64,000 nucleotides of DNA from a bacterium HR21 (GTDB lineage Bacteria; Bacteroidota; Ignavibacteria; Kapaibacteriales; HRBIN21): assembly GCA_002898295.1 (NCBI GenBank), contig BEHX01000008.1, positions 1 to 64,000 of the forward strand, written 5' to 3'. The notes below the pieces were generated by a model, which worked only from the letters and a program-made list of their open reading frames with translations, did no database searches and was not told the DNA's origin. The position numbers and the translations under genes were made by a program. Positions 37,536-52,881 of the stretch are shown one piece after another (within the stretch, counting starts at the first letter, position 1; each line of letters opens with the position of its first letter).

Positions 37536-38074
37536 GGCGCACCTTCGGGAGATTGTGAGACATGCTGTTGCTGAAGCTGCCGGAGCAGCTCCCGCTGCTG
37601 TAAGCGTTGCTGGCGCCGGAGTTCTGCCTCCCGCCAGCGGCGCCATTCTTCGTCCGTCTGTGGCTCCACCGGCGGCACCGGGAGTGGCTTGCCGTACTGG
37701 TCAATAGCAACGAAGGTCAAGTACGCTGAAGCGGCATGCGTGCGTGTGCCATTGATCGGGTCTTCCCGAAAGACTTTGACCCCCACCTCCAGCGACGTCC
37801 GAAACGCTCGGTTGACTGAAGCCAGGATGTGGACAATGTGCCCGATCCGGATCGGCTCCAGGAAGCTAATGCTATCCACAGCAGCGGTCACACACACCTT
37901 CCCCGCATGGCGCATGGCAACGAGAGCCGCGGCAATATCCATCCACTGCATGAGCTGCCCCCCGAGCAGGTTCCCCAGCTGGTTGGCATGATTGGGCAAG
38001 ACCAAGTGGACCATTTCCACCGCTGATGCCGAAGGCGGTTTGCCGGCTGCCGTATGCCACGCCTCACTTGCCAT
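37532..38074 (-). CDS. Acyl-CoA thioesterase, hotdog fold (YciA/BFIT type)
   Basis: 180 aa. The hotdog domain (about 18-140) reads VHLVLPNHANQLGNLLGGQLMQWMDIAAALVAMRHAGKVCVTAAVDSISFLEPIRIGHIVHI, the classic YciA-type pattern with the Asn-His and the Asp at the active site. A Gln/Arg-rich coiled C-terminal tail (about 145-180, RRQQRLQQRELLRQLQQQ) is unusual. These enzymes hydrolyse acyl-CoA in the cytoplasm, possibly for lipid turnover. The gene overlaps the end of bamD by 11 bp and the next outer-membrane protein gene by 4 bp (ATGA). Confidence 0.88.
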   Translation of the reverse strand: MASEAWHTAAGKPPSASAVEMVHLVLPNHANQLGNLLGGQLMQWMDIAAALVAMRHAGKVCVTAAVDSISFLEPIRIGHIVHILASVNRAFRTSLEVGVKVFREDPINGTRTHAASAYLTFVAIDQYGKPLPVPPVEPQTDEEWRRWREAELRRQQRLQQRELLRQLQQQHVSQSPEGAP

Positions 38075-38804
38075 GGTTGAGATCTGCCGCTACTGTTTCC
38101 ACAAGCTGGCGCTGTGCCCCGTTGGGGAAGAGCCGACGGTATGTCTCAATTGCTTGTTGCGCCTCTGCCCAGCGTCCGAGTTCGACCAGCGCACGGATCT
38201 TTCCAACCCACGCCAGCTCAACGAAGTCCGTGTCTGCGTACTGCTGCAGAATCCCATCGTAGTAGATGAGAGCCGACTGTGGGCTATGGAGCTTGGTGTA
38301 GAGCTGAGCAATGCTGTACTCCCGCTGTGCGAGCTTATTGCGCAGCTGGCGGATCTGCTGTTCAACCTCGGGGAGCAGGGAATCGCCCGGATAGAGCTGG
38401 CGAAACTCGTTGAGCGCAGCGAGCGCCTTGTAGGTATATTCCTGGTCACGGTCATACGGCGGGGATAGCGCCCTATACGCCTGCCCGATCTGATAGAGCG
38501 CCTGCCGGGCATATGGACTGTTCGGGTACGTCTGCCGAAATTGCTGGTAGAGAAAGGCTGCCATGATGTACTCACCCCGCCGGAAGCGGAGCTCTGCCAG
38601 CAGGAAGAGCGCATCATCGGCGTATTGGCTGGCAGGATACTGCGTGCGGATAAGCTCCAACCATTTCTGCGCCAGCATGTCTTCCTTCTTCTCGTACGCC
38701 AGCTGGGCTGCCCGAAAAAGCGCTTCCACATCCCGAGGATCTGGCTCCGGGATACTGGCACAGGCACCCAGCAGGAGCACTATGAGGGAGAAGCTCTGCC
38801 GCAT
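38064..38804 (-). CDS. bamD: Outer-membrane assembly lipoprotein BamD
   Basis: 246 aa from the ATG at 38804 (MRQSFSLIVLLLGACASIPEPD). The lipobox LGAC gives a lipidated Cys16. Tetratricopeptide-like helices follow: EALFRAAQLAYEKKEDMLAQKWLELIRTQYPASQYADDALFLLAEL, YIMAAFLYQQFRQTYPNSPYARQALYQIGQAYRA and a later pair around LIYYDGILQQYADTDFVELA. This is the BamD/YfiO layout. The protein is the essential partner of BamA for inserting outer-membrane barrels. No bamA lies in the window. A perfect promoter box is only 8 nt before the ATG, so the transcript may be leaderless. Confidence 0.88.
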   Translation of the reverse strand: MRQSFSLIVLLLGACASIPEPDPRDVEALFRAAQLAYEKKEDMLAQKWLELIRTQYPASQYADDALFLLAELRFRRGEYIMAAFLYQQFRQTYPNSPYARQALYQIGQAYRALSPPYDRDQEYTYKALAALNEFRQLYPGDSLLPEVEQQIRQLRNKLAQREYSIAQLYTKLHSPQSALIYYDGILQQYADTDFVELAWVGKIRALVELGRWAEAQQAIETYRRLFPNGAQRQLVETVAADLNHGK

Positions 38805-38812
38805 GGCACATG

Positions 38813-38820
38813 CAAAATTA
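38813..38820 (-). promoter_or_regulatory. TAnnTTTG promoter -7 box for bamD
   Basis: The minus strand reads TAATTTTG, an exact consensus match with 8 nt to the bamD ATG. No ribosome site fits between, so the mRNA start would be at or near the start codon. Confidence 0.6.
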
Positions 38821-38927
38821 GCCTTTTCCCCAGGGCAGCGCGACCGGACCGCTTCCGCTGCCGATTGCTTTTTGCAGGCAAAGAGCGAATTTTGAATGTT
38901 GTCAAACGCTGCCACGCATCACGACAC

Positions 38928-41017: not shown

Positions 41018-44000
41018 CTACCACCCCACTGCTGTGCGAAGCAGCGAGCGGAAACGCACCGTCCACCGGAATGCCCACCGTCTCTCCCCCGCCGGAGGAT
41101 GGCTCAGGTAGAGCGGGAAATCGAGCGCTAGCTCGTCAATTCTGAGCCGTTGCAGCAATGGGACCTCCGAGCCTGTCGGCATCAGAGCCATCAGCTGCAG
41201 GGAGCAACTCACACCGCCATCCCAGAGCCACTCTCGGAACGGTGCCCACCTCTCTCCAACGGCTCCGCCATCGGCAAAGAGGCGGAACTCCAGAAGCGAG
41301 CTCAGGAGCGCTCCACCCGGCAGCAAACGCAGCAACGGCGAGAGACCAAGCTCCACATTGAGCGCTGTCAACGTGCTGCCCACAACCGTGTCCTGAGCAA
41401 CGTAGCCCCGCAAGAAGGCACCCCCGACCGGGGCTGTCCGGCTCCGCCGCGCCGCCGGAGAGACAATCCCAGGGGCACGGTACAGCGGGAGCTCAAGCTC
41501 CTCCAGCGGCGCAACCGAAGCCCGACGGAACCCGAGCGGCACCGGGAGAAACTCCGGTGCGCTCGGCAAGAACCCGCCAAGGGCACCCCGGAGCACGACC
41601 GGGAAAGGGAAGTCCGGCTGCAGGATCAGCTCCGCCGTTCCCCGGATGAAGCCCCACTCCGTAGCGAGCGGCACAACTGGCGTGGTCCCATACGCATACC
41701 ACCCGGGCTCCAAACTCCCGTATAGCTGCAGAGACCCTGCGGGGAAATCCCCCCGGAGCCTTGCAGCAGCCCTCAGCAGTAGGAGCCGCTGTCTGTCCCG
41801 TGCAGCCAGTGGCGAACCTGGGAAGGCGTACTCTGCCGTTCTCTGCAGCCACATTCCCGCCGCAATGCGCCCGGTCAGCTCCCAGGGTGATGGTGGCTCA
41901 GGCGTCAGCTGCCAGCTTGCCCCGCCGCGGAAGCGCCACCAGCCATCCTGCCGCGCCAGCAATGCCTCCAGAAACGGGCGCCCGGGAAGTTGCCAGAGCA
42001 AATGCCCCCAGCGAAGCAGCACATTGAACGCCTGCGGACCGACGCGCATCCCCTGCAGGACCGAGAGATGGAACTGGTGAAAGAAGCCCAAGTACGCTCC
42101 ACGCAGCTCCACTCCCAGCTTGAGTCCATCCCGGTTGTTGAATCCCAGCGCCGGCTGCCATGAAATCCCATAGGCGGAAAGCTCTACCGGGTCCGAGCTG
42201 AGCGCCTCGAGGAAGAAGCGCACTCGCACCGGCGGGAAGAGTCCCGAACTGTTGTTGAGCCGGTTGATATCGAGCAGCAGCACCGTATCCGGATCAACCA
42301 CCGCCCGGATAGCGGGCGCAGGAAGGCGGATGGTCTTCTCCACCCGCCGCGGTCCGCGCAGCACCTCGTCTACCCCGAAGTGCAAGCGGTACCGCTGTCC
42401 GGTTGCAAGCAGCAACTCTACATCCACCGGCATAATTGCGCTGCCGCGCCGATCCAAGGCAACCGTAACATCCCAGAGCGAGCCCGCCGTGGGAGCCCGC
42501 CCTGCCGGTCCTACCGGCACATTCCGGAGTCCGCCGAAGGCATAGTCGAGCACAGGTGTCTGGGCAAACCACCGGTCGAAGAACCACCGCAGATCCACCC
42601 GCTGCCCCTCCCGCCGCAAAGCGATCTCGGACGCCAACCGTGCGAAATCCTCCGGATACACATGCCGGAAACGGTAACGGCGGAAGTACTCCTGCATCAG
42701 CTCGGCAAAGGTTTCCTGCCCCAGCACACCCCGAAGCATGAACAGAAGCGAAGCCGTCTTCGGGTACGAATTGACGCTGTAGCCGGCGACCGTCCGGTAC
42801 CAATCCGAGCGCGTCAGCAGTGGCTCATCCCAGCCGCGCAGCTGCCAGAGAATCGTGCTCACCGCATTGCGCGTCCGCTCATCAGCTGCAGGGATCAGGA
42901 AACGGAGCCAGCCCGGCACACGCAGCCCCATCGCCCACCGCCCGTAGAACGCCTCCAGTGCAAGGGTTGTGATGAAGGTGTTGAAGCCCTCATCCTGGAA
43001 GCCGAACTCGGTTTCGTTGGAGTTGACCACCATCGGGTACCAGTTATGCCCGATTTCGTGCATGATGACCTCAACTGTCCAGGGGGCGATCACGCCCCCG
43101 CCGAGCCCTCGCCCGATGAAGACAATGCCGGGATACTCCATCCCACCGGTTGTGCCGCCAACGATCACAACCAGGTCGCTGTACGGGTACCGCCCGAAAT
43201 GTTCGGAGAAATACCGCACGGCATGGACCGCGGCGCGGAGCCCCTCGTCGCGGTAGAAGCTCTCCAGGCGCTTTGGATAGAGCACGTGGACGAGGATACC
43301 ATCCCACTGCTGCGCATCCCAGAGATAGCGGCGCACAGCAGCCCAGGCAACTGTGCGGACCCGCTCAGCACGGAAGCGCCACGTCTTCAGAGCCGTATCG
43401 CTCAATGGACGGGCAGAGAAATCAGCGATGCGAACCGGCTGTGTCTGCGTCCGAGCTCGCTGCAGCGCCTGCCGTACCTCGTCGGGAAAGACCTCATCGG
43501 GATTGAGCAGAACCCCGGTATGCACCACACAGTACGTCCCCGGCAGTGTCAACTCAACTTCGAAATCGGCGATCTCCTCGAAAAACTCTCCCGTGCCCAA
43601 ATACTGCTCCGTATGCCAGCCGTAGCGGTCATACACACACACCGAGGGGAACCAGTTGGCAATGAAGTAGTCCTCCTCAAAGCGCCCCATACGCAGCCCT
43701 TCTGGGGGTACTTTCTGCGCAATGCTGCTGAGCACCACGAGAGAATCCCCTGGGGCAAGGGGCTTCGGCACCGGAAGGCGCACAATGGTGTTATCCACGC
43801 TGAAGTCGGTGCGTCGCTCGCCGGTAGAAGCAATGACCACGAAGGAATCGATCCGCACAGGGGGCAGCTCGGGGATTCGCTCCAGACGCCTCTCCCGGCT
43901 CAACTGTCGGGCATAACTCTGCGGGGCGAAGATGTTCCAGTACAGGTGCACGTATAGCTCCCGCAGCGTATCGGGGGAAGCATTCCGGTAGACCATCCGG

Positions 44001-44131
44001 GTCTGGACCGTCAGCAGTGTCTCTGCTGGCACGAGCACCGCACGGATGGCATATGAAACCCCCTGCTGCCACTCTTGCGCTACCGCTCCACACAGCACGA
44101 TACCCAGCAGGACACTCCACCGCAGGCGCAT
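41018..44131 (-). CDS. M1 metallopeptidase fused to a probable Omp85-type C-terminal barrel
   Basis: 1037 aa. A signal peptide (about 1-18) leads into an M1 fold: GGTTGGMEYPG (325-335, the GAMEN-equivalent), MHEIGHNWYP with zinc ligands His358/His362, and Glu381 18 residues later in FGFQDEGFNTF; the catalytic Tyr is probably in NSYPKTA (about 456). Zinc aminopeptidase activity is therefore likely. From about 640 the sequence changes to amphipathic beta strands with Omp85-like signposts: GAFLRGY, NVELGLSPL, LFADGGAVG, LALDFPLYLSHP and a closing WAFRWTVRFRSLLRTAVGW. The layout suggests an outer-membrane-anchored peptidase facing periplasm or surface. The barrel call is inference from pattern. 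It follows a second barrel gene by 12 bp. Confidence 0.75.
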   Translation of the reverse strand: MRLRWSVLLGIVLCGAVAQEWQQGVSYAIRAVLVPAETLLTVQTRMVYRNASPDTLRELYVHLYWNIFAPQSYARQLSRERRLERIPELPPVRIDSFVVIASTGERRTDFSVDNTIVRLPVPKPLAPGDSLVVLSSIAQKVPPEGLRMGRFEEDYFIANWFPSVCVYDRYGWHTEQYLGTGEFFEEIADFEVELTLPGTYCVVHTGVLLNPDEVFPDEVRQALQRARTQTQPVRIADFSARPLSDTALKTWRFRAERVRTVAWAAVRRYLWDAQQWDGILVHVLYPKRLESFYRDEGLRAAVHAVRYFSEHFGRYPYSDLVVIVGGTTGGMEYPGIVFIGRGLGGGVIAPWTVEVIMHEIGHNWYPMVVNSNETEFGFQDEGFNTFITTLALEAFYGRWAMGLRVPGWLRFLIPAADERTRNAVSTILWQLRGWDEPLLTRSDWYRTVAGYSVNSYPKTASLLFMLRGVLGQETFAELMQEYFRRYRFRHVYPEDFARLASEIALRREGQRVDLRWFFDRWFAQTPVLDYAFGGLRNVPVGPAGRAPTAGSLWDVTVALDRRGSAIMPVDVELLLATGQRYRLHFGVDEVLRGPRRVEKTIRLPAPAIRAVVDPDTVLLLDINRLNNSSGLFPPVRVRFFLEALSSDPVELSAYGISWQPALGFNNRDGLKLGVELRGAYLGFFHQFHLSVLQGMRVGPQAFNVLLRWGHLLWQLPGRPFLEALLARQDGWWRFRGGASWQLTPEPPSPWELTGRIAAGMWLQRTAEYAFPGSPLAARDRQRLLLLRAAARLRGDFPAGSLQLYGSLEPGWYAYGTTPVVPLATEWGFIRGTAELILQPDFPFPVVLRGALGGFLPSAPEFLPVPLGFRRASVAPLEELELPLYRAPGIVSPAARRSRTAPVGGAFLRGYVAQDTVVGSTLTALNVELGLSPLLRLLPGGALLSSLLEFRLFADGGAVGERWAPFREWLWDGGVSCSLQLMALMPTGSEVPLLQRLRIDELALDFPLYLSHPPAGERRWAFRWTVRFRSLLRTAVGW

Positions 44132-44143
44132 GGCGTCTCCGTC

Positions 44144-44809
44144 TCAGAAGCCTACCCCGGCATAGAGACCGAGGGACAGAACCCGAAGCTGCCGTAGCGG
44201 TTCGTTTTCCCGTAACGGTGGCTTGAGTTCCTCCCTGAGCACCGAGCGTGTCCCGAGCTGGAGCCGGACATCCACGAGCAGCCGCGCAGAGCGCCGGAGA
44301 GCAAGCTCCGTCCCTATGCCGGCAACGAATCCGAGATCTGCAGTGTGGAACGAAGCCCCCACCGGTCTCGGAACGGAGTTGGGGATTGCCTGCTCGAGCT
44401 CCCCGCTCAACCGGAATGCTGGGACGATCCCTAGCGCGGGGGCAAGCATGGAGCGCCCAACAGTAGTCGCTAAGCGTACCAGAAGCGGCAGCTCCACGTA
44501 CGCCAAATCGTAGCGCAGCGTGTAGCCACCGCCCCCGAGCTGGATGTCCTGCTCCGTGGTCCGGCGAGTGTAGAGCACCTCCACCTGCAGCCCTAGTTCC
44601 CCACCGGTGAAGCGCCGGAGAGCGAACACGGCGAAGCCTCCAGCAGATAGATTCGCCTGCATACTGGCTCCCTCTGCGTCAGCCCCAACGAAGGTTGTCC
44701 CCACCATCCCTACACGCAGTCCCTTGCGCTGCAAGGAAAACGGCCTGACATCCTGCGCCTGCGCGACAGCGGCAACCACTATGCACACCCCAATGCACCA
44801 CCTCCACAT
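44144..44809 (-). CDS. Outer-membrane beta-barrel protein (PorT-like)
   Basis: 221 aa from the ATG at 44809 (MWRWCIGVCIVVAAVAQAQ, signal peptide); the open frame extends 13 codons further, into the promoter box. The mature part has repeating strands, LQVEVLYTRRTTEQ, YTLRYDLAYVELPLLVRLATTVG, LAPALGIVPAFRLSGELE and VLSLGLYAGVGF, typical of the 8-stranded outer-membrane beta-barrel (PorT/OMP_b-brl) family that includes gliding and T9SS accessory proteins. The short final strand ends in Phe, as barrel proteins do. Exact role unknown. It is the first gene of a unit with the M1-barrel protein. Confidence 0.78.
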   Translation of the reverse strand: MWRWCIGVCIVVAAVAQAQDVRPFSLQRKGLRVGMVGTTFVGADAEGASMQANLSAGGFAVFALRRFTGGELGLQVEVLYTRRTTEQDIQLGGGGYTLRYDLAYVELPLLVRLATTVGRSMLAPALGIVPAFRLSGELEQAIPNSVPRPVGASFHTADLGFVAGIGTELALRRSARLLVDVRLQLGTRSVLREELKPPLRENEPLRQLRVLSLGLYAGVGF

Positions 44810-44942: not shown

Positions 44943-45743
44943 ATGCGGGTAGCTCTCCCTTTCAGCCTTGCGCTCTGTACCCTCGGGCTTTTGGGGTTGC
45001 AGACTCCTCCATGCCCACCCGGTGAATGGACCCGCTGGGTTCCCAACGAGGCGTTCGGATTCGGGGAGCGTCTGGAATTCGATGTCAAGTACCGCTTCAT
45101 CACTGCCGGGACTGCCTTCTTCCAGATTGCACCGCAGCCGCTCTACCGTCATGGGCGCCCCTGCTACGACATCCGTTTCGAAGTCCGCTCCGTCCCTGCC
45201 CTGGATTGGCTCTATCGAGTGCGAGACACCTACCGCACGGTGGTTGATGTGGCAGGGCTTTTCCCGTATGAATTCGAGCAACGCCTGCGGGAAGGGAACT
45301 ACCGCCGGGACTTCACCGCCCGTCTCGATCACGCCGCCTGCCGTGCATATACCTCCGATGGGGACTTCCCCATCCCCCGACACGTCCACGACATCGTTTC
45401 GGCATTCTACTACGTCCGCACGCTCAACCTCTCGGCAATGCCCCGGGATACGGTCATCCGCCTGCAGAATTTCTACGGCACGAAGACCTACGATCTCGGC
45501 GTGCGCATCCACGGCAAGCAGATCGTCACAGTTGCCGCAGGCACCTTCCGCTGCGTTGTGGTCGAACCCCTCGTCGTCGAAGGTGGGCTCTTCAAAAGCG
45601 AGGGGCGTATCCTCATCTGGCTCAGCGACGATGAGCGGAAAATCCCCGTCAAGGTCGCTACCAAGGTACTCATCGGCACCATTGATGCCGAGCTCACCGG
45701 CTACTCCGGGCTCCGGGGACCACTGCTAGCAAAGCTGCGATGA
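44943..45743 (+). CDS. DUF3108-family periplasmic protein
   Basis: 266 aa with a signal peptide (MRVALPFSLALCTLGLLGLQ). DUF3108 landmarks include ERLEFDVKYRFITAGTAFFQI, CYDIRFEVRSVPALDWLYRVRDTYRTVVD, LFPYEFEQRLREGNYRRDF, DIVSAFYYVRTLNL and a C-terminal LIWLSDDERKIPVKVATKVLIGTIDAELTGY. The family is beta-rich and periplasmic; its role is not established, but neighbours and LolA-like folds suggest lipoprotein or lipid handling. It overlaps lolA by 4 bp (ATGA), and the two are followed by the zinc-ribbon gene. Confidence 0.85.
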   Translation: MRVALPFSLALCTLGLLGLQTPPCPPGEWTRWVPNEAFGFGERLEFDVKYRFITAGTAFFQIAPQPLYRHGRPCYDIRFEVRSVPALDWLYRVRDTYRTVVDVAGLFPYEFEQRLREGNYRRDFTARLDHAACRAYTSDGDFPIPRHVHDIVSAFYYVRTLNLSAMPRDTVIRLQNFYGTKTYDLGVRIHGKQIVTVAAGTFRCVVVEPLVVEGGLFKSEGRILIWLSDDERKIPVKVATKVLIGTIDAELTGYSGLRGPLLAKLR

Positions 45744-46327
45744 GTCCCTTTGGGCTGTGCATCCTCCTTGCGATGGCGAGTACCCTCGCCCGTGGCGAGG
45801 AGTTGCAGGAGCTCCGGCGCTTCTCCTCACGACTGCAGAGCATTGCGGTCGAAGCGCGTTCGGAAACGGGGATCGAAGTCGCTCTGCTCGCCGCTCGCGG
45901 GAATCGCTTCCGCCTCCAGTGGCAGGGACGGCTGGTGGTCTGCGACGGGAAGACGGTCTGGAACTACAGCCCCGAACACCGGCAGGTGGTCATCTCGGAG
46001 GCACGTCGGCTATCTGGCGGGCTGGAGCAGGTCTTCACAGCCTTCCTGGAGCATGCCCACCTGCGGATTGTGGAGCGTCGTGCCGATACGCTCCGCGTTG
46101 AATGCCTTCCGGCATCCTCTTCTCCATCGCTTGGATTCCGCTCCGCGGTGCTCACAGTGCGCCGGGGTGATTGGACTCCGCTAGCACTGGAGCTCCGCAC
46201 CGAGGCAAGCACCCAGCGCTGGGAGCTCCGCAACTTCCGTGCAAACCCACCGGTGCGCCCTGAGGATTTCGCCTTTACCCCACCTCCAGGGACCGAAGTC
46301 ATCCGGCTCACCCCGCCAGGGCAGTAA
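45740..46327 (+). CDS. Outer-membrane lipoprotein carrier LolA-like
   Basis: 195 aa with a signal peptide (ending near ARGEE). The LolA fold is seen as LQELRRFSSRLQSIAVEARSETG, ARGNRFRLQWQGRLVVCDGKTVWNYSPEHRQVVIS (the half-barrel with the bottom strand) and FRSAVLTVRRGDWTPLALELRT, ending with an Ala/Pro-rich FAFTPPPGTEVI strand. LolA carries lipoproteins through the periplasm from LolCDE to the outer membrane. The many lipoproteins in this window need it. It is translationally coupled to DUF3108. Confidence 0.85.
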   Translation: MSPFGLCILLAMASTLARGEELQELRRFSSRLQSIAVEARSETGIEVALLAARGNRFRLQWQGRLVVCDGKTVWNYSPEHRQVVISEARRLSGGLEQVFTAFLEHAHLRIVERRADTLRVECLPASSSPSLGFRSAVLTVRRGDWTPLALELRTEASTQRWELRNFRANPPVRPEDFAFTPPPGTEVIRLTPPGQ

Positions 46328-49126: not shown

Positions 49127-49605
49127 CCGTCCGCTATCAGGACCTGTTCGCCTTCGTACTGCCGAATGAGCACGCGGTAGGCGTCCTGGATACGCTCCGG
49201 ACGGTGCGTTGCCGGATTCAAATGCACCATCACTGTCCGAGCCGCTGCCAGCAGTTCCCGGTCTGGCAGCCGGCGCACCAGCTGCTCAAAGCTCAGCGAG
49301 CTCCGCCCAACCGAGGCAATGCGGGTGAGCACCTCGTACTCGTCATCGAAGAGTGCCGCAAGGCGGTAGTCAATCTCGATGTGGGCAACCACGAAGCGGT
49401 GCTTCGTGATGAAGGTCTGCCGTTCGATGGGCAATCCCAAGGCGCGGAAGTACTCCACACGGGCGTTTTCCAGCCAGTAGAGGTAGACGGCGTTGTGGAC
49501 GATACCCTGGCGATCAACCTCGTGCGCACGGACACGTCCCAGGAGACGATGCGGGAAGCGCTCCGGTTCGGTACCTTGCCAGCGAGTGTCCTTCTGGTCT
49601 CCCAT
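49123..49605 (-). CDS. YbgC/4HBT-family acyl-CoA thioesterase
   Basis: 160 aa, a single hotdog domain. The active-site loop is HEVDRQGIVHNAVYLYWLENARVEYFRALGL, where the Asp and Asn of this family bind substrate, followed by VVAHIEIDYRLAALFDDEYEVLTRIASVGRSSLSFEQLV. Family members act on acyl- or hydroxybenzoyl-CoA; YbgC links to phospholipid and Tol-Pal biology in other bacteria. A GGGAGA ribosome site lies 9 nt before the ATG. It overlaps GH3 by 4 bp and follows threonine aldolase by 11 bp. Confidence 0.87.
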   Translation of the reverse strand: MGDQKDTRWQGTEPERFPHRLLGRVRAHEVDRQGIVHNAVYLYWLENARVEYFRALGLPIERQTFITKHRFVVAHIEIDYRLAALFDDEYEVLTRIASVGRSSLSFEQLVRRLPDRELLAAARTVMVHLNPATHRPERIQDAYRVLIRQYEGEQVLIADG

Positions 49606-49616
49606 CGCTGGTCTCC

Positions 49617-50657
49617 CTAGGTTCCCACCAGCACCGAACGCGCAGCCCGGATGACGGCATGGGCTGCCTGGAGGGCTTGCTTGCGGTCAATGTGCAAATG
49701 GAAGACAGCACGGGCAAATCCGGGCATTCCCTGGCTGAGCAACACGCCTTCCCGTCGGCATGCCTCAGCAAAGGCAGCAAAGGGAACATGCGCCGGATAG
49801 CGGAAGACGACAATATTGGTCTGTACCCGATCCAACTCCAGCTCAAAGAGCGCTGATTCAGCCAAGAGCCGGGCAAAGAGCAGCGCATTCTCGTGGTCCT
49901 CGCAGAGGCGCTCACGATGGTGCTGGAGTGCATAGAGCGCTGCTGCTGCTAAAATACCTGCTTGGCGCATTCCGCCCCCGAGGATTTTGCGCCATCGGCG
50001 TGCCTCTTCGATAAAGGCGCGGCTGCCCACAAGCGCTGAGCCAACAGGTGCTCCCAACCCCTTGGAGAAGCTCACCATAAGGCTGTCGAACGGCTCGGCA
50101 TATTGCCGGGGTTCCAGTCCCGTTGCGGCACACGCGTTCCATAGCCGTGCCCCATCGCAGTGGAGAGCGATGTTGTGGCGCTGAGCCAGGTGCGCCACCG
50201 CCTCGATGTAGTCCAGCGGCAGAATCGTTCCCCCGTGCCGGTTGTGCGTGTTCTCCAGGCAGATCAGCGCCGTCCGCGGGAAGTAGTATGCCGGTGGGCG
50301 GATCGCTTGCTCCAGCGCTGCCAGCGGCATTTGCCCTCGTTGCGAAGGGATACAGAAGAGCTGCACCCGGGCAATGAGCGCTGGCGCTGCAGTCTCGTAG
50401 GTAAAAATGTGCGAGGCTGCTTCCACAATCACCTCCTCTCCGGGGCGGCAATGGACAGCAAGCGCAATCTGATTCCCCATCACCCCGCTGGGGACGAAGA
50501 GTGCCGCCTCCTTCCCCAATAACTCGGCGACAAACTCCTGCAGGGCATTGACCGAAGGGTCCTCCCCGAAGACATCATCGCCGACGGGCGCCTGCGCCAT
50601 CACACGGCGCATCTCCTCGGTAGGCTGCGTGACAGTATCACTCCGCAAGTCAATCAT
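49617..50657 (-). CDS. ltaE: Low-specificity L-threonine aldolase
   Basis: 346 aa from the ATG at 50657 ([12 protein letters not shown]), the family start. The frame opens 26 codons earlier, exactly overlapping the LegB-like stop (ATGA), but that extension is unlike the family, and a TAnnTTTG box lies inside it. Key pieces are [15 protein letters not shown], the PLP-lysine segment [18 protein letters not shown], and [22 protein letters not shown]. It is a PLP enzyme of fold type I cleaving threonine to glycine and acetaldehyde. Substrate preference between L-threo and L-allo is not decided. Confidence 0.92.
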
Positions 50658-50680
50658 GACCCAGGCAGCACGAATGCCTA

Positions 50681-50688
50681 CAAAGATA
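50681..50688 (-). promoter_or_regulatory. TAnnTTTG promoter -7 box for threonine aldolase
   Basis: The minus strand reads TATCTTTG, an exact consensus match, 23 nt before the ATG at 50657. It lies inside the possible 5' extension, supporting the shorter start and a promoter internal to the long minus-strand run. Confidence 0.5.
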
Positions 50689-50731
50689 CCGCAGCCGCTC
50701 GGAGAACTCTCCCCGAGCGCTGCTGACTGGC

Positions 50732-51724
50732 TCATATCAGGTAGTCCTCCGGGCGGTATTGCGACACGTGCGCTACAAACCAGGCAATGGTTTCCCTGAG
50801 CCCCTGCTCAAGGCTATAGCGGGGCGCCCAGCCCAGACGCTGGCGTGCTTTGCGGCTATCGGCACAGAGGCGGTAGACCTCGCCCTGTTCTGGACGCATC
50901 CGCCGTTCCTCCTGCCGCACTGGCAGCTCGGGCTTGTCCAGCAGCGCACAGAGTGTACGGCATAGCTTCTCAATGCTGATCTCGTGCCCGGTCCCAACGT
51001 TGAAACTCTCCCCAACCACTCCTTCTGCCGGTGCCCGAAGGCAGGCAAGGAAGGCAGCGACGGTATCGGCAACGTAGAGCAAGTCGCGCGTGGTCTCCAG
51101 CCGCCCCAGCCGAATTTCCTCCCGCTGGAGCGCTTGCAGGAGAATCGTCGGGACAACCGCTCGCGGTGTCTGCCGAGGACCGTAGGTGTTGAACGGGCGG
51201 AGGATGACCACGGGTAAGCCATAGGTGTGGAAGAAGCTCTCGGCAAGCTTATCGGCGGCGACTTTACTGGCAGCGTAAGGTGAGCGCGGTCGCAGTGGAT
51301 GCCCTTCGTCCATCGGCACATACTGCGCTGTCCCGAAAACCTCGCTCGTTGAGGTCACCACGACACGCTCCACGCTCTCCTCTTCCAGAAGGGCAGAGAG
51401 CACATTGAGCGTCCCGGTGACATTGGTCTCCACCACCTCGCGGGGATGTACGGCAGAGTACGGGATGCTGATGCAAGCTGCCAAATGCAGCACGTACGGA
51501 CATCCCCGACAGGCGCGGCGGACAGCATCGGCGTCGCGCACATCCCCGCGGACGAGTTCGAGCTCGGAGAGCACCTCCGGGGCAACCCACCGCAGATTCC
51601 CCAGGCTGCCGTCAGAGACGTACCGCACAAAAGCACGCACCTGGTAACCTTCGCGCACGAGCGCCTCAACCAGATGGCTCCCAATAAAGCCTGCAGCACC
51701 AGTGACCAGCACACGTTCGGGCAT
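50732..51724 (-). CDS. LegB-like NAD-dependent sugar 4,6-dehydratase/epimerase
   Basis: 330 aa, extended SDR family. The nucleotide-binding start is [31 protein letters not shown], the active site includes [39 protein letters not shown] (Thr-Tyr-Lys triad), followed by [19 protein letters not shown]. This matches the LegB-type 4,6-dehydratases that begin legionaminic/pseudaminic-like sugar synthesis from UDP-GlcNAc or GDP-sugars. No other genes of a nine-carbon acid pathway are adjacent, so the final sugar is unknown. It lies 5 bp after GT4, so the pair probably builds one glycan. Confidence 0.85.
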
Positions 51725-51729
51725 CTTCC

Positions 51730-52881
51730 CTACGGACTCAGCAAACTACGGTAGAGCTCGAGGCATCGCCGTGCCAGTACGGACCAGTCCAGCCCCTGAG
51801 CCGCGCGCAGGGCATTGCAGCGCATCTGGTAGCGTCCTTCCCGGTCCTGCAGCATCCTCTGCAGCGCTGCTGCCAGTGCCCGCTCATCCGCCGGGGGCAC
51901 GACCAGTCCAGCACCGAAGTCCTCTACCAGGTCCTGAGCCCCATTGGTGTGGCAGATAACCAGTGGTAATCCGGCAGCGAGTGCATCAGCGCAGGAGAGT
52001 TCGAACCCTCCGCTGAGTGCCGGCGCTACGTAGACATCCGCAGCCACGAAGCGGCGAACCAACGCCTCCGGAGGCTGCAGCGGGACCCCGTGCTCATCGT
52101 GTTCGAGCGGTATTTCTCCGAGCAACTCCACCGGTGCCGGGACCTGCCCCGAGCGCAAGGCGTCCGTTCCCACTCCTGCAACCCAGAGCCGCCATCCACG
52201 GGGATAGTGCTGGAACAGATGCGCAGCAGCCCGCAGCAGAACCACTAATCCCTTCACAGGGCTGAGCCGGCTCACGGTGAGGAAAACCACTTCCTCAGCA
52301 CTGACGCCGAAGGCGCGCCGGAGCGCCTCGCGGTCCCAGCCTTGGAAGCGCTGGAGGTGTGTGCCATTCGGCAAAAAGAACGCCCGCTGCGCTGCCTCCG
52401 GAGCCAGCACAGCCAGCTCGCGCTGCATCAGACGGCTGCTGACCGTCAGCGCCGCCGCACGTCTGACCGTGCTCTGAATGCGCCGTTCCACACGGCGGGA
52501 GAGCCGCAGCCCATACCCGAGCGGCTCGTAGAGGTGGATGTCCGCCCCCTGGGGGGTCACCACCACCGGCACCCGCATCCAGCGTCCAAAGCGGCAGGCA
52601 TCGTATCCTGCCGGATAGAGCATCTGGGCGTGGAGAAGCTCATACGGGCGATGGCGGTGTAGCCGTGCCAGCGCCGCCCACGCACGGAGCGCTCGCGGCA
52701 CCCCACGCCACGACGGCAGCGGCACGATCCGATACGGCACCTCTACTCCCAGCGGCTGCCGTGGGACGACCACGCTGACCTCAACACCGAGCTCCGTGAG
52801 CGCTCGTGCAAGGTGATGAACAGCGATCTCCACCCCACCGATCCGTGGCAGAAAGTGGTATGTCAGCAAGGCGATGTGCAT
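51730..52881 (-). CDS. Glycosyltransferase family 4
   Basis: 383 aa, GT-B fold. The N-terminal half starts MHIALLTYHFLPRIGGVEIAVHHLARAL, a GT4 opening, with HAQMLYPAGYDACRF and VTPQGADIHLYEP. The C-terminal half has VVFLTVSRLSPVKGLVVLLRAA and the nucleotide-sugar motif ALSGGFELSCADALAAGLPLVICHTNGAQDLVEDFGAG, with the catalytic Glu in GFELSCADALA. It retains anomeric configuration when transferring sugar to a lipid or glycan acceptor. The neighbouring LegB-like gene suggests it adds a modified sugar to a surface polymer. Confidence 0.9.
   Translation of the reverse strand: MHIALLTYHFLPRIGGVEIAVHHLARALTELGVEVSVVVPRQPLGVEVPYRIVPLPSWRGVPRALRAWAALARLHRHRPYELLHAQMLYPAGYDACRFGRWMRVPVVVTPQGADIHLYEPLGYGLRLSRRVERRIQSTVRRAAALTVSSRLMQRELAVLAPEAAQRAFFLPNGTHLQRFQGWDREALRRAFGVSAEEVVFLTVSRLSPVKGLVVLLRAAAHLFQHYPRGWRLWVAGVGTDALRSGQVPAPVELLGEIPLEHDEHGVPLQPPEALVRRFVAADVYVAPALSGGFELSCADALAAGLPLVICHTNGAQDLVEDFGAGLVVPPADERALAAALQRMLQDREGRYQMRCNALRAAQGLDWSVLARRCLELYRSLLSP

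Follow-up and report, generated by a model that had tools for sequence, protein, structure and literature searches.

A gene joining an M1 zinc-peptidase module to a probable Omp85-type barrel, an old, widespread and apparently undescribed design in Bacteroidota

The locus described here raises the question of whether a single gene can carry both a zinc peptidase and an outer-membrane barrel and, if so, on which side of the outer membrane the enzyme would work. The gene lies in a window of 64,000 nucleotides (the whole stretch of DNA that was analysed), where an open reading frame without internal stop runs exactly from 41018 to 44131 on the minus strand, and its product opens with a signal peptide, recognised by eye from the sequence, that reads MRLRWSVLLGIVLCGAVA up to the predicted cleavage point before QE. 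The parts of the gene that concern export and the peptidase are as follows.

41018-44131, minus strand: M1 peptidase-Omp85-like barrel fusion gene, 1037 residues, with full-length homologues at 15 genome loci
44078-44131, minus strand: predicted Sec signal peptide, residues 1-18, cleaved between AVA and QE
42248-44074, minus strand: M1 peptidase module, residues 20-628, matching the unfused homologues in extent (PF01433; the DPD..NN motif also closes the unfused forms; Foldseek matches to IRAP and ERAP)
43127-43147, minus strand: GGMEYPG exopeptidase motif (GAMEN equivalent), residues 329-335, with GMEYP invariant in 16 sequences
43046-43060, minus strand: zinc-binding HEIGH, residues 358-362 (HEIGHNW, 358-364), from an alignment of 16 homologues
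42989-42991, minus strand: Glu381, third zinc ligand, 18 residues after HEXXH and invariant in 16 sequences
42764-42766, minus strand: Tyr456, presumed catalytic tyrosine, invariant in 16 sequences

The peptidase half of the question has a plain answer. The module matches PF01433 (Peptidase_M1, a gluzincin family; E 3e-15, residues 304-521, 56.8 bits against a curated cut-off of 27.7), the sole Pfam family matched, and the complete M1 machinery that had been read from the sequence alone is borne out: the zinc site (H358, H362 and E381), the catalytic E359 and Y456 show no variation among 16 homologues. In the exopeptidase motif GGMEYP (329-334), a Tyr replaces the Asn of the GxMEN-like pattern. 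NCBIfam and PDB sequence searches agree with an M1 assignment (leukotriene A4 hydrolase, ERAP and aminopeptidase N), and Foldseek, queried with the full AlphaFold2 model, returned insulin-regulated and endoplasmic reticulum aminopeptidases, the best 50 matches listed being M1 enzymes only. Such a complete active site suggests that the module would act as an aminopeptidase.

A frameshift or assembly artefact as the source of the fusion was ruled out, since 15 other genomes encode the same architecture at the same length. The sequence-only reading had proposed a search for the fusion in other Kapabacteria and Ignavibacteria, and it proved to be present across Bacteroidota and not rare. In a phylum-wide search, M1 relatives were found in 222 of 296 genomes and fall into two main size classes. 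When aligned with 29 long forms, the 16 short forms end 7-35 residues from a conserved D-P-D...N-N segment, which closes the peptidase module at residue 628 of the fusion protein; the long forms extend 358-442 residues past this segment, and occur in Kapabacteria, Flavobacteriales, Bacteroidales and other Bacteroidota, as well as in one member of the Calditrichota (Calditrichia sequence L010). In an unrooted maximum-likelihood tree restricted to the M1 module, a single branch with support of 100/97 divides long from short forms, so that one gain or one loss explains the data; because this one branch separates fused from unfused enzymes, the architecture is both old and kept. The 1.8 Mb genome itself encodes one M1 protein of this kind and one barrel of this type, alongside four PF01103 loci.

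When the barrel was used as the sole query, 34 of 148 genomes gave matches, most of the best being stand-alone open reading frames of 403-472 residues. Among the neighbours examined (greA, NUDIX, acetate kinase and polysaccharide genes), no M1 gene was found beside a stand-alone barrel, and no split-gene pair was seen. These stand-alone, POTRA-less Omp85-like barrels (L152-L175) occur amid housekeeping genes in some Bacteroidota families and have no Pfam model; two stand in tandem at L157.

What, then, is the C-terminal domain? Its features are listed below; the conservation counts refer to 38 barrels (16 from fusions, 22 stand-alone).

42167-42247, minus strand: peptidase-barrel linker, residues 629-655, 27 residues, low-confidence coil in the model
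41054-42166, minus strand: Omp85-like barrel of 16 predicted strands, residues 656-1026 (AlphaFold2 model, profile-profile match, Foldseek)
41375-41563, minus strand: long loop between strands 11 and 12, at the position of BamA loop L6, residues 857-919 (AlphaFold2 model)
41402-41425, minus strand: GGAFLRGY, the L6 RG(Y/F) motif, residues 903-910 with Arg908, Arg in 37/38 barrels
41351-41353, minus strand: Glu927, strand 12, conserved in 36/38 barrels
41270-41272, minus strand: Asp954 of the F-x-D motif, strand 13, conserved in 38/38 barrels

A match to PF01103, suggested earlier as a check on the barrel, was not obtained with plain HMMER; neither this nor any other Pfam family was matched by the barrel domain of the fusion protein or of 19 relatives, even at E 10, and direct NCBIfam and PDB sequence searches likewise returned no match to it. 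Homology became visible when profiles were compared with profiles (hhalign in local mode, the pairwise E-values of which carry no database calibration). A profile of the 16 fused barrels matched, at 97.0% probability (E 1.3e-10), an Omp85 profile made from the phylum's own PF01103 proteins and, at 96.5%, the barrel of DUF5686, a second family that had been put forward for checking. For the same profile the controls remained low, with 1.0% for FadL, 2.2% for TonB-receptor barrels and 0.1% for the reversed profile against Omp85; over all profile tests, the FadL and TonB controls ranged from 0.7 to 2.2%. With the 22 stand-alone barrels included, the match to Omp85 improved to 97.9% across 288 columns, with E 3.4e-13 and a score of 101, against best scores of 18.6 for column-shuffled and 40.7 for block-shuffled Omp85 profiles. 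A broad profile was needed, as narrow ones made from four or six close sequences gave no match to Omp85. Since plain HMMER finds no match to PF01103, the barrel represents a distant, uncatalogued Omp85 branch, the whole of which Pfam misses.

Barrel profiles can cross-match, FadL against TonB scoring 85% in the same test, and this, together with the uncalibrated pairwise E-values, is why the motif evidence matters. In the profile alignment, LRGY, N-x-E, F-x-D-x-G and DAG-x-G stand in register between the stand-alone relatives and Omp85. The succession of Omp85-like elements pointed out from the sequence alone is likewise present in the order given, namely GAFLRGY (904-910), NVELGLSP (925-932), LFADGGAVG (951-959), LALDFPLYLSHP (1001-1012), WAFRWTVRF (1019-1027) and a C-terminal W; these are not chance resemblances, the core residues being nearly invariant across the 16 fused and 22 stand-alone barrels. 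The loop motif of the domain has the form GG-x-x-(L/V)-RG-Y. In our reading, the loop between strands 11 and 12, with its GGAFLRGY, sits where BamA has loop L6 with the VRGF/Y motif; Arg908 is presumably the counterpart of the L6 Arg of BamA, and Glu927 (strand 12) and Asp954 (strand 13) those of the acidic residues that partner it.

The full-length AlphaFold2 model, built from 16 alignment rows (mean pLDDT 72.9, the barrel mostly at 50-80), places 16 strands within residues 656-1026 at modest confidence, with closure of the barrel inferred and not seen. Modelling the barrel by itself gave a poor result (pLDDT 48.9), probably owing to the ten-row alignment; queried with this model, Foldseek gave as best PDB matches Porphyromonas gingivalis BamA (E 6e-4), Deinococcus BamA, TamA, Sam50 and further BamA structures, at TM-scores of only ~0.3. 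The proposal of an M1 peptidase joined to an Omp85-type barrel thus stands, on profile matches with clean controls, 16 predicted strands with RGY at L6 and the Foldseek matches, and we consider it highly probable that the C-terminal domain is an Omp85-type barrel.

The neighbourhood is rich in envelope genes.

44144-44809, minus strand: small outer-membrane beta-barrel gene with an ATG start (PF13568, E 1.2e-6), 12 bp upstream of the fusion gene

This second barrel gene, on the same strand, does precede the fusion as the sequence-only reading had it, and it holds the same relative position in three Kapabacteria relatives (L001, L002 and L003). A LytR-CpsA-Psr gene, convergent with the fusion gene, ends one base away from it. 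Near the fusion gene, outside its transcription unit, are a gene for a BamD/YfiO-like lipoprotein (38064-38915) as well as DUF3108 and LolA-like genes (44943-46327). The DUF3108 gene (44943-45743) is unusually conserved, with ~90% identity to its counterparts in L001 and L002 (Kapabacteria) against 47-68% for neighbouring envelope genes.

Elsewhere in the genome, a second zinc-peptidase-like Omp85 fusion of 1091 residues combines Peptidase_MA_2 (HELVH), a PD40 beta-propeller and a PF01103 barrel (L181:701-3973; G000:C1, about 280500-283772), and the 'WD40-Omp85' class may contain more members with a Peptidase_MA_2-like peptidase. A patatin-Omp85 (PlpD-like) gene is also present (L180:1375-4221; G000:C3, about 49174-52020, minus strand), which brings the enzyme-Omp85 fusions in this 1.8 Mb genome to three. 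In a separate comparison, the C-terminal half of DUF5686 proteins (PF18939; L080-L098) matched Omp85 at 81.6% by profile, which suggests that these proteins, too, may end in an Omp85-type barrel.

On these grounds we favour, with a probability of roughly 0.6, an M1 aminopeptidase anchored in the outer membrane, its catalytic domain most likely on the periplasmic side and its barrel serving mainly as an anchor. Sec would export the protein, and the Omp85-like barrel at its C-terminus, with 16 predicted strands, would insert into the outer membrane, there to provide mainly an anchor and docking site for a presumably active M1 zinc aminopeptidase; the catalytic domain would lie just beneath the outer membrane on its periplasmic side, where probable substrates are peptides that have crossed the outer membrane or remain from envelope protein turnover, and the barrel would probably no longer insert or secrete other proteins. 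Three considerations favour a periplasm-facing, anchored enzyme. An even number of strands (16) would leave the two termini of the barrel periplasmic, and with them most likely the catalytic domain. The gaps after odd strands, which would be extracellular, total ~124 residues in the model against ~65 after even strands, a difference that would fit a periplasmic N-terminus. The third is the precedent of PlpD, long held to be self-secreting, the enzyme domain of which is periplasmic (PMC11116518). The comparison with PlpD is inexact because POTRA is absent: no POTRA domain was matched by Pfam in the fusion protein, and there is no room for one in residues 629-655. Roughly half of the long forms (L010-L015, L025, L029-L039, L043 and L049) carry no RGY motif but retain the M1 domain and a beta-rich C-terminus, and this suggests that anchoring is the constant role of the barrel and insertase chemistry is not.

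The sequence-only reading had also suggested that the barrel might drive surface display of its own peptidase, for which we found no support. In such a type Vd-like arrangement, the barrel would help the M1 domain to cross the outer membrane, and the aminopeptidase would act at the surface on environmental peptides. Translocases such as FhaC do belong to the Omp85/TpsB barrels (PMC4104836), Arg908, Glu927 and Asp954 are kept, and a 27-residue linker without POTRA could in principle thread the barrel; however, M1 is a 600-residue globular enzyme, the predicted 16-strand topology would place the N-terminus in the periplasm, and the secretion model for PlpD has been overturned in favour of a periplasmic enzyme domain (PMC11116518). 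We therefore regard surface display as unlikely, if still worth considering. A more speculative version, which we think quite improbable, is that of an undescribed, POTRA-less Omp85 subfamily, occurring alone and fused to a zinc aminopeptidase, in which the fused barrel would let peptides, or the attached enzyme itself, cross the outer membrane and would so couple translocation to N-terminal trimming. We are very doubtful of an active Omp85 machine with a built-in protease, in which the barrel would still insert or export proteins and the M1 domain would trim or degrade clients in a quality-control-like manner; its Omp85 homology and L6 motif, the nearby BamD-like and LolA-like genes and the propeller-bearing fusion in the same genome speak for it, but Pfam finds no POTRA, many fused relatives without the RGY motif still keep the peptidase, and the BamD-like gene lies outside the transcription unit of the fusion. 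It is very improbable that the likeness to Omp85 is superficial and that the C-terminal domain belongs to some other barrel lineage or is a soluble beta domain: the domain has no Pfam match and barrel profiles do cross-match, but its Omp85 match is far above FadL and TonB, its stand-alone relatives share the four motifs in register with Omp85, and Foldseek favours BamA and TamA.

Returning to the anchored aminopeptidase, its two halves each have familiar relatives. The M1 module shares the GAMEN-like motif, HEXXH-X18-E, catalytic Tyr and fold with LTA4H, ERAP/IRAP and the cold-active aminopeptidase, none of which has a membrane barrel. With BamA, TamA and Sam50 the fusion has in common the L6 RG(Y/F) motif and its partner acidic residues, and its predicted 16 strands would agree with their 16-strand barrel, whereas it lacks POTRA, carries an N-terminal enzyme instead, and resembles them only from profile to profile. 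The C-terminal barrel of the Bacteroidota outer-membrane proteins of DUF5686 (PF18939) matches that of the fusion by profile, but their N-terminal region differs and has no M1 peptidase.

Among Omp85 proteins, POTRA domains are usual but not universal, POTRA-less members being known, and the ten-family census of Heinz and Lithgow includes WD40, patatin, 'Metallo' (PF00149), lipoprotein, noNterm and other classes (PMC4104836). Its 'noNterm' and 'Metallo' proteins lack POTRA and include stand-alone and enzyme-fused barrels of mutual resemblance, a pattern shared by the fusion family, and no M1 fusion is described in the text of that census (PMC4104836). The enzyme domain of the 'Metallo' subfamily is PF00149, whereas that of the fusion is PF01433. 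We take PF00149 to be the calcineurin-like phosphoesterase family, although the census authors speak of a metalloprotease, and their word is therefore no prior description of an M1 fusion. No report of an M1-Omp85 fusion was found in the open-access literature searched; as the fusion proteins are common, unremarked database entries surely exist. The fusion is an old and widespread design, apparently undescribed, and a variant among enzyme-Omp85 fusions.

The nearest known system is the PlpD-type patatin-Omp85 protein (type Vd), which, like the fusion, is a single exported protein with a hydrolase at the N-terminus and an Omp85 barrel at the C-terminus (PMC11116518). The fusion differs from it in having a zinc aminopeptidase in place of a patatin lipase, no POTRA before the barrel, and a barrel without a PF01103 match. 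By the account of the PlpD paper, all Omp85 proteins characterised earlier inserted or moved proteins, and PlpD was the first sign of re-use to hold an enzyme (PMC11116518). The M1 fusion places a second, unrelated enzyme on an Omp85-type barrel that is POTRA-less, is widespread in Bacteroidota and also occurs alone, and the family makes both the function of a POTRA-less Omp85 barrel and the membrane side of its enzyme testable.
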